Assembly: GCA_913047695.1 (NCBI GenBank)
Contig: CAJWUI010000005.1
Span: 62,001-126,000 of the forward strand
Length of the DNA: 64,000 bases
Direction: 5' to 3'
From: an uncultured Bacteroidota bacterium
GTDB lineage: Bacteria; Bacteroidota; Bacteroidia; Flavobacteriales; Flavobacteriaceae
The notes beneath the pieces were generated by a model that ran no database searches, was not told the DNA's origin, and worked only from the letters and a program-made list of their open reading frames with translations. This document shows positions 36,717-38,376 of the stretch, one piece after another. How positions within the stretch are numbered: the stretch's first letter is position 1; the number at the start of each line of letters is the position of its first letter. A program made the translations under genes and the position numbers.

Positions 36717-36724
36717 TAAATTTG
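36717..36724 (+). promoter_or_regulatory. -7 box of the pyrG promoter
   Basis: TAAATTTG matches TANNTTTG exactly. By the spacing seen at recR and guaA, transcription should start near 36728-36731, on the bases CCGG. No good -33 TTG is visible. Confidence 0.55.
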
Positions 36725-36727
36725 AGT

Positions 36728-36758
36728 CCGGTTAACGTTTATTAATTCAAATAACCGG
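36728..36758 (+). promoter_or_regulatory. pyrG leader hairpin, candidate CTP-responsive control element
   Basis: CCGGTTA (36728-36734) pairs perfectly with TAACCGG (36752-36758) around a 17-base AT-rich loop. The 3' arm ends one base before the pyrG ATG, and the 5' arm begins at the predicted transcription start. A seven-pair stem with four G:C pairs stands out in this AT-rich sequence. Folding would hide the start codon region. That it responds to CTP is inference from the arrangement. Confidence 0.5.
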
Positions 36759-36759
36759 G

Positions 36760-38376
36760 ATGTCAAATACTAAATATATTTTTGTAACAGGTGGTGTAAC
36801 TTCCTCATTGGGTAAGGGAATAATCGCAGCCTCTTTAGCAAAACTTTTACAGTCCCAAAATTTCAAGGTAACCATTCAAAAGTTCGATCCTTACATTAAT
36901 GTTGACCCTGGGACACTAAATCCCTACGAACATGGAGAATGTTTTGTAACTGATGATGGTGCTGAAACAGACCTAGATCTTGGACATTATGAACGATTTT
37001 TAAATGTTAATACTTCGCAGGCTAATAATGTTACCACAGGATTAATTTATCAAAATGTAATTGAAAAAGAAAGAAAAGGAGAATTTCTTGGGAAGACAGT
37101 TCAAGTTATACCCCATATAACTAATGAGATTAAAGATAGAATGAGATTATTAGGTGACTTAGGTGATTATGATATAATTATAACAGAAATTGGTGGGACA
37201 GTTGGTGACATAGAATCATTACCTTACATAGAGTCTGTAAGACAAATGGTTTGGGAGTTAGGAAAGGAAAACACATTAGTTATTCATTTAACATTAATTC
37301 CATTCCTTTCTGCTTCTGGTGAATTAAAAACAAAGCCAACTCAACATTCAGTAAAAACATTAATGGAAAGTGGAATATCTGCAGATATTATTGTTTGTAG
37401 GACTGAACACGAGCTTTCAGAGGAATTAAGAGAGAAAATTGCATTATTTTGTAATGTTAAAAGAGAAGCTGTAATTCAGTCTATAGACGTAGATACAATA
37501 TATGACGTGCCTTTAAAAATGTTAGAGGAAGGACTAGATACTGTAGTTTTACAAAGGTTGCAATTAAAACCAAAACAAAATCATGATCTCAAGCCATGGA
37601 ATGCATTTTTAAAAAGAGTTCGAAATCCTAAAAATTTAATTAAGATAGGGTTAGTAGGAAAATATGTTGAACTTCAAGATTCATATAAATCCATTTTGGA
37701 ATCATTAATACACGCTGGTGTAGAAAATGAAACAGAAATTTCTGTGGTATATTTACATTCAGAACACTTAGATTCTAAAAATTTAGACACCAAACTAGGA
37801 CCTCTAGATGGACTGATTGTTGCACCAGGATTTGGAGAAAGGGGAATAGAAGGAAAAATCATGGCAATTTCGTATGCTAGGTTAAATAATTTACCTTTTC
37901 TTGGAATATGTTTGGGTATGCAAATGGCTGTTATAGAATACGCCAGAAATAAAGTGGGTCTAAAGAATGCTAATTCTACTGAAATGGTATCTAATTGTAA
38001 GTATCCAGTCATCGACTTGATGGAATCACAAAAAAGTGTAATAAATAAAGGGGGAACAATGCGTTTGGGTTCATGGGATTGCAAATTAACACCTAATTCT
38101 AAGTCAGCAATTGCTTACCAAAAAAAACATATTAATGAGCGTCACCGTCACAGGTACGAATTTAATAATGAATTTTCAGATAAAATTTTTGATCACGATT
38201 TTATTATTTCAGGCACAAACCCTGAAACTGGTTTGGTTGAAATTATAGAATATAATTGTCATCCATGGTTTGTTGGTGTTCAGTTTCACCCAGAATATAA
38301 AAGCACTGTACTTAAACCTCATCCGCTTTTTAAAGCATTTGTTAAAGCAAGTCTTGAAAAAAATCTAAAAACTTAA
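36760..38376 (+). CDS. pyrG: CTP synthase
   Basis: Makes CTP from UTP, ATP and glutamine. The 538-residue protein has the N-terminal synthetase domain ([41 protein letters not shown]) and the C-terminal class I glutaminase with the Cys in LGICLGMQ and the His-Glu pair in FHPEYKST. Length is normal. Its short leader forms a hairpin reaching the start codon. YidC follows after 8 bases, so the two share a transcript. Confidence 0.98.

Follow-up and report, generated by a model that had tools for sequence, protein, structure and literature searches.

A conserved start-codon hairpin in the pyrG leader of a flavobacterial genus as a candidate CTP-sensing switch

The window, by which we mean the whole 64-kb stretch of DNA analysed here, belongs to a genome of 1.96 Mb (G000), and 36 further genomes of its genus were drawn for comparison. 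Among the matches listed, the closest named records are metagenome-assembled flavobacteria (L151-L153), the window's own genome possibly having been left out. On the forward strand, which carries every feature described below, lies an open reading frame of 538 amino acids (36760-38376) that we take to be pyrG, encoding CTP synthase, from the conserved start of its protein; the related pyrG loci have the same protein beginning. A gene that is presumably a YidC-like membrane insertase (38385-40196) follows 8 nt behind pyrG and is probably co-transcribed with it. The upstream gene (34934-36685), which we take to contain LysM-like repeats, ends 31 nt before the −7 promoter element of pyrG. No terminator-like site was found in 36500-36900, and read-through transcripts from the upstream gene could therefore also carry the hairpin described below.

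The pyrG leader reads, in order, TAAATTTG-AGT-CCGGTTA-(17 nt)-TAACCGG-G-ATG. Its first part, TAAATTTG (36717-36724), is a −7 element of the Bacteroidota form TAnnTTTG, and the predicted start region is T-C-C-G-G (36727-36731), bases 3-7 after the box, in which the published flavobacterial spacing indicates C36729 or G36730. The 5' arm CCGGTTA (36728-36734) is separated by a loop of 17 nt (36735-36751) from the 3' arm TAACCGG (36752-36758), which ends one base (G36759) before the ATG at 36760. A preliminary description of this DNA had placed the −7 box, the CCGG at 36728-36731, both arms and the ATG at these positions and had stated that the arms pair perfectly one base before the start codon; all of this was confirmed by reading the sequence. 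T36727 could form an extra G-U pair with G36759. There is no Shine-Dalgarno sequence in TAACCGGG-ATG of the window leader, and Rfam gave no match at the gathering score in the window or in 11 pyrG loci. Beyond the TAnnTTTG core, TTT-N-G directly 5' of the −7 box (36712-36716 in the window) was conserved at a level of at least 95% in 34 loci of the genus.

The pattern CCGGT-N8-28-ACCGG occurs once in the window, the G+C content of which is 0.326, and that occurrence is at pyrG. Among the seven window genes for which a TAnnTTTG leader was found, pyrG alone has a stem of more than four pairs, with seven. A stem of at least seven pairs joining the ends of the leader arose in approximately 1.4% of shuffles of the window leader, and 0.1% of the shuffles matched its pairing when a GC-weighted score was used. 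The 38-nt form from C36728 folded at −7.9 kcal/mol, which 17 of 200 shuffles equalled or surpassed, while 60 of 200 shuffles folded as well as the 63-nt form; the z-scores of folding were modest (−1.28 and −0.39). Judged from the window alone, the hairpin is thus moderately beyond chance. Its free energy by itself is unremarkable, and it is on the conservation of the element in relatives that the case rests.

In all 34 pyrG loci of the genus (L001-L034, the window included), which were taken unselected, TAnnTTTG is followed by three bases, CCGGT, and an ACCGG that ends 0-3 nt before the ATG. These loci contain 27 distinct leaders, and the addition of L153 brought the number to 28. The core arm CCGGT is invariant among the 28, as is the position of the 3' arm at 0-3 nt from the ATG. 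Base 3 after the −7 box is T in 12 and C in 16, and bases 4-7 are CCGG in every case, such that the conservation of start bases that the preliminary description had proposed looking for in relatives is present as YCCGG at bases 3-7 in 28/28. The loop varies in sequence and length, the span between the five core pairs being 17, 18, 19, 20 or 21 nt, with the arms unchanged; these single-base steps between constant arms fit an RNA structure better than a DNA operator. The sixth pair is a standard pair in nine leaders and is unpaired in 19. Regarding covariation, which it had also proposed looking for, the five core pairs are identical in all 28 leaders and offer none, and a single two-sided change at the sixth pair, A-T for T-A in L153, is what the genus provides.

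The exact hairpin pattern matched in 36 of 38 genomes of the genus, in each of them against the start of pyrG by position, and its reversed control gave four matches. The two genomes without a match were G011, in which no pyrG was found, and G431. Two stray sites (G000:C2:235363 and G015:C28) were dropped as chance matches, both being inside open frames; the frame around the former looks like that of a gamma-glutamyltransferase, an assignment that we assume. In pyrB, pyrC and pyrD of six members of the genus, including that of the window, no such hairpin was present in the 17 readable loci of 18, the remaining one (L272, pyrC of the window's genome) being blank, with no ATG. The regulon search covered these three genes, at the strongest match to each. 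A nearby TAnnTTTG was found at two pyrC loci, with an A/T-only stem of six pairs in L274 and three pairs in L271. Apart from the two strays in reading frames, these results support a tie between the hairpin and pyrG within the genus.

A separate observation was made on pyrD of the same six members (L245-L250, L249 being that of the window's genome). In all six, pyrD starts 13-19 nt behind a GCGGG that forms the end of a terminator-like hairpin with a T run behind it in the same orientation, and TAnnTTTG is absent from the 110 nt before the ATG. This hairpin is possibly an attenuator, or possibly only the terminator of the preceding gene.

More widely, 200 pyrG loci were surveyed, without L121-L150, which were matches to the genus pattern; 20 loci without an exact TAnnTTTG and a leader of at least 14 nt were left out, and distinct leaders were counted because some species appeared twice. 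A second set of leaders, from a sample of other Flavobacteriales and with Maribacter, Arenibacter, Lacinutrix and Psychroserpens among its named members, has the form TTTG-NNN-GCGTT...ARCGY-NNN-ATG. In 19/19 distinct leaders of this set, GCGTT at bases 4-8 is accompanied by ARCGY, the arm of which ends 3 nt before the ATG, with a span of 3, 4 or 13 nt. The changes in this set are one-sided (T-A to T-G and G-C to G-T), and all five pairs are kept in the 19 leaders. A third set, CGCGGTTT...AAACCGCG-ggt-ATG, was found in two genomes of one other family (G049 and G062; loci L036 and L106). None of the three hairpins is present in 104 of the 153 distinct leaders. In a tree of 90 proteins, GCGTT leaders were located in three places, one of which was mixed with CCCGTA leaders, and, as the deep nodes are weakly supported, how often the GCGTT hairpin arose is uncertain. 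Both arms were part of the pattern by which the two main hairpin sets were selected; however, every distinct leader with CCGG at bases 4-7 or with GCGTT at bases 4-8 also had the second arm. That two other sets carry different stems in this position is better evidence for the hairpin than covariation.

The three sets also agree at the predicted start. Bases 5-6 after the −7 box are C-G in 28/28 leaders of the window type, 19/19 of the GCGTT type and 2/2 of the third set, and the remaining 104 distinct leaders contain a single further case (L197, itself with a weaker pairing), a link that was spotted after the fact. In the hairpin sets, the two positions at which starts are favoured are thus occupied by a C beside a G.

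These comparisons bear on two readings in which the arms would not function as an RNA stem. The first is that the conserved start sequence and the conserved bases before the ATG pair by chance, without a function as a pair. Invariant core pairs do not in themselves prove pairing, and the folding energy noted above would be compatible with this reading; nevertheless, it has to contend with the different stems of the two other sets and with the excess of end-to-end pairing across leaders, in which P<0.05 was reached by 55 of the 116 distinct leaders with a length of 12-40 nt, against 5.8 expected, as a guide only, since the shuffles were of single bases and kept base content only and the leaders are related and not independent. 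The corresponding numbers were 28 of 89 after removal of the window type and 11 of 70 after that of the GCGTT type as well. We know of no other reason for an ACCGG before the ATG, and regard chance pairing as extremely improbable. The presence of a hairpin at the start codon of pyrG is, on these comparisons of leaders, well supported.

The second reading is that a dimeric repressor binds the two arms as a DNA operator overlapping the start point. Both an inverted repeat in a biosynthetic promoter and the perfect 16-bp DNA palindrome, TGCGTTTATAAACGCA, that lies at the start point in two leaders of the GCGTT type (L089 and L093) would suit such a site. Against it stand the spacing of the arms, which is not fixed in the genus or in the GCGTT set, and the tie of the site to pyrG in the genus. 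We rejected an operator on account of the varying arm spacing and consider it very unlikely as an explanation of the window-type leader; in L089 and L093 themselves, a DNA-level role of the palindrome is conceivable.

The position of the transcription start was predicted from published spacings. According to passages of a study of Flavobacterium johnsoniae (PMC6847099), the −7 element lies between −12 and −5, with 4 or 5 nt separating it from the start in 241 of 434 candidates; in passages of a study of F. psychrophilum (PMC9723704), the box is likewise at −12 to −5. A spacing of 4-5 nt would place the start in the window at C36729 or G36730. The preliminary description had placed it on CCGG by the spacing implied at other genes, and may have relied for this on guaA, the box of which, TATTTTTG (33384-33391), stands 3 nt before an ATG (window 33384-33397). 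The guaA mRNA may be leaderless, and by analogy a start at the fourth base would correspond to C36728.

The same description had opposed a stem of seven pairs from a C start to one of five pairs from a G start. Its general point stood, since later starts do weaken the stem; the simple opposition did not, as the loss is graded stepwise. The computed energy of the stem alone in the window is −7.9 kcal/mol from C36728, −4.6 from C36729, −2.6 from G36730 and +1.6 from G36731, and for the same four starts in L014 it is −5.6, −2.5, −0.5 and +3.7 kcal/mol, each base of later start costing approximately 2-4 kcal/mol of stem. A G start in the species of the window leaves five pairs at −2.6 kcal/mol, and the off-state may consequently be leaky, while in L014 and L016, which have five pairs, it leaves almost nothing of the stem. 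In the GCGTT set, the mean stem energy is −5.6 kcal/mol from G4 against −1.6 from C5, so that a strong stem needs a G4 start, which fits poorly with a rule by which a C start makes the hairpin. The GCGTT hairpin may answer to another base or may only damp translation.

A role of this latter type could be extended to all of these leaders, in that the hairpin may be a constitutive translational damper or a 5'-end protector with a single start base, the stem only setting the level of PyrG. This account, which we consider unlikely, would explain the conservation of the hairpin in the genus and the lack of correspondence between the strength of the GCGTT stem and the choice of C or G. It would also agree with the dominance of purine starts in Bacteroides thetaiotaomicron, where passages of one study (PMC7366714) give 45% and 41% of starts for A and G, with G36730 then perhaps being the only start in the window. 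The same A- and G-dominated usage makes runs of C at the start position unusual, and a damper leaves unexplained the YCCGG of all 28 window-type leaders, the C-G shared by the three sets and the likeness to pyrC and pyrD described below. Moreover, a stem that only stabilised the mRNA would have no need to end 0-3 nt from the ATG.

In enterobacteria, the choice of start at pyrC and pyrD by nucleotide pools is established. We read the pyrD leader of E. coli MG1655 as CATAAT-ACGCC-CCCGGT-TTGCAC-ACCGGG, with the arms CCCGGT/ACCGGG, and that of pyrC as TATCCT-TTGTG-TCCGGC-...-GCCGGA, with the arms TCCGGC/GCCGGA, the −10 elements being our own reading. The same YCCGG start region is therefore present in both, which bears out the likeness to these genes drawn in the preliminary description; the window genus has TCCGGT (12/28) or CCCGGT (16/28) with ACCGG, arms that resemble those of the E. 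coli pyrD and pyrC leaders. Common to pyrC, pyrD and the window type are a Y-C-C-G-G start, a complement near the translation start and a stem that is weakened by later starts. The differences lie in the gene, which is pyrG, in the promoter, which is TAnnTTTG, and in the target of the stem, which in pyrC and pyrD hides the Shine-Dalgarno sequence, whereas that of the window covers the bases beside an AUG that has none. With no Shine-Dalgarno sequence for its stem to cover and with start points that are predicted, the leader can be said to work like those of pyrC and pyrD without being a member of their family. Since the sigma factor and the gene differ, convergence on the needs of the mechanism is the best account of the likeness; by this analogy, these needs would be a pyrimidine, a C and then a G within a GC-rich arm.

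Among other known systems, the attenuator of Gram-positive pyrG concerns the same gene. It occurs in B. subtilis and has been suggested for S. agalactiae, and passages of one study (PMC4448216) describe how the beginning of the transcript senses a shortage of pyrimidines. In that system, the addition of G residues at the start prevents attenuation at a terminator that precedes the gene. The window leader has a hairpin at the start codon instead, and we rejected an attenuator of this type because the window start is AGTCCGG, with no G run, and no terminator-like site was found in 36500-36900. In the codBA, upp and pyrBI genes of E. coli, reiterative U addition occurs, and the level of expression depends on the bases transcribed first. 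Many Flavobacterium pyrG leaders resemble these in form through the G-T run at their start; the window leader has no U run.

Taken together, the most likely explanation, to which we assign a probability of roughly 0.58 and which is unproven, is that the pyrG leader of the genus acts by itself, without a protein, as a switch of the kind known from enterobacterial pyrC and pyrD. RNA polymerase carrying the sigma factor of Bacteroidota would bind TAAATTTG and start on C36728 or C36729, or on G36730 or G36731. When CTP is plentiful, a start on C would allow the first bases of the mRNA to pair with the TAACCGG beside the AUG and thereby cover the start codon; when CTP is short, starts would move to G, the outer pairs of the stem would be lost and PyrG would be made. 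We infer the start points, their dependence on CTP and the block to translation from the arrangement of these elements. Besides the modest folding scores, the possibly leaky G start, the poor fit of the GCGTT set and the 104 leaders without these hairpins, two further points count against the switch: transcripts reading through from the upstream gene would contain the hairpin wherever pyrG transcription began, and the invariance of the core pairs leaves the core without covariation. The interpretation as a CTP-sensing switch of start site and hairpin, which was that of the preliminary description, is thus partly supported.

Regarding the block to translation, passages of the F. johnsoniae study (PMC6847099) describe Bacteroidetes as naturally without the Shine-Dalgarno sequence and the mRNAs of F. 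johnsoniae as lacking it and favouring an A at −3, the replacement of which cut reporter expression by 15-70%. In the same passages, pairing near the AUG accompanies a lower ribosome density, an effect that the authors regard as subtle. The window genus keeps ACCGG beside the AUG, displacing the A at −3 favoured in F. johnsoniae. By analogy with these findings, a block to translation by a stem beside the AUG is plausible.

Outside the two main hairpin sets, other patterns recur at the start of pyrG. Of 106 distinct leaders, 28 have CCCGTA after TAnnTTTG at a distance of exactly 3 nt, from Sphingobacterium to Robiginitalea, and 39 have a G at bases 4-6 followed by at least four T. In the phylum sample of 198 genomes, the strict form of the former, TANNTTTGNATCCCGTA, was found in 12, with one match apiece, and nine of the 12 matches were pyrG leaders, against three matches of the reversed control. 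From these patterns, one may argue that CTP acts at the C run widely in the phylum, by reiterative C addition or as the first nucleotide, and that the hairpin was a later addition. This is improbable as an explanation of the window leader. In 12/28 leaders of the window type (TCCGG), only two C bases are present, which is fewer than the usual slippage tracts, and for this reason we set aside C slippage as the main mechanism in the genus; a plain start with CTP as the first nucleotide would raise pyrG at high CTP, which is the wrong sign for feedback; and the strict pattern is missing in 186 of the 198 genomes.

Several further observations were made on these leaders. In 13, mostly of the Sphingobacteriaceae (L201, L203-L205, L208-L210, L213, L214, L217, L219, L222 and L228), TTTG-(T/A)AT-CCCGTACA is shared directly behind the −7 box, within approximately 100 nt before pyrG, and the rest of the leader diverges, the invariance at the start being by choice, as these leaders were selected for a CCCGTAC start. 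A further hairpin was seen by eye behind the CCCGTA start in L208, L210, L214, L219, L222, L228, L239 and L242, its sequence differing and its pairing being kept, as in TTTGTTCCG/CGGAGCAAA of L219 and TGACCC/GGGTCA of L242; Rfam gave no match for L210, L214, L219, L222, L239 and L242. In eight Flavobacterium-like genomes of one genus (g21; L280-L287), the pyrG leader is TAnnTTTG-CCNN-G-TTTTTT, with two other sites in these genomes against five in the reversed control; they were chosen for a pyrG leader seen beforehand, and only the scarcity of other sites is new. The form of this leader recalls the U-run slippage starts of codBA and upp.

The distribution of these patterns points to special selection on the opening bases of the pyrG transcript over a large part of the phylum, with the hairpin as one elaboration. 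A wider proposal, which we put forward tentatively and at somewhat less than even odds, is that, in much of Bacteroidota, the bases with which the pyrG transcript begins control the gene. The CCCGTA and G-T-run starts would respond to CTP or UTP when transcription begins, and at least three groups, including the genus of the window, would have coupled the start region to a start-codon hairpin, re-inventing the pyrC/pyrD switch on another gene, with another sigma factor and without a Shine-Dalgarno sequence.

Among the matches listed in a search of the open literature, most subscription papers being outside its scope, we found no report of CTP control of pyrG in Bacteroidota. CTP synthase acts at the branch from UTP to CTP, and Bacteroidota are a dominant phylum in the sea and in the gut. 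If the pyrC/pyrD-like switch is true, pyrG in the genus of the window would owe its regulation to which base comes first and to a short stem, needing neither a protein nor a ligand pocket, and nearly identical letters would have been reached in two distant phyla. It would also represent a means of blocking translation in mRNAs that lack a Shine-Dalgarno sequence.
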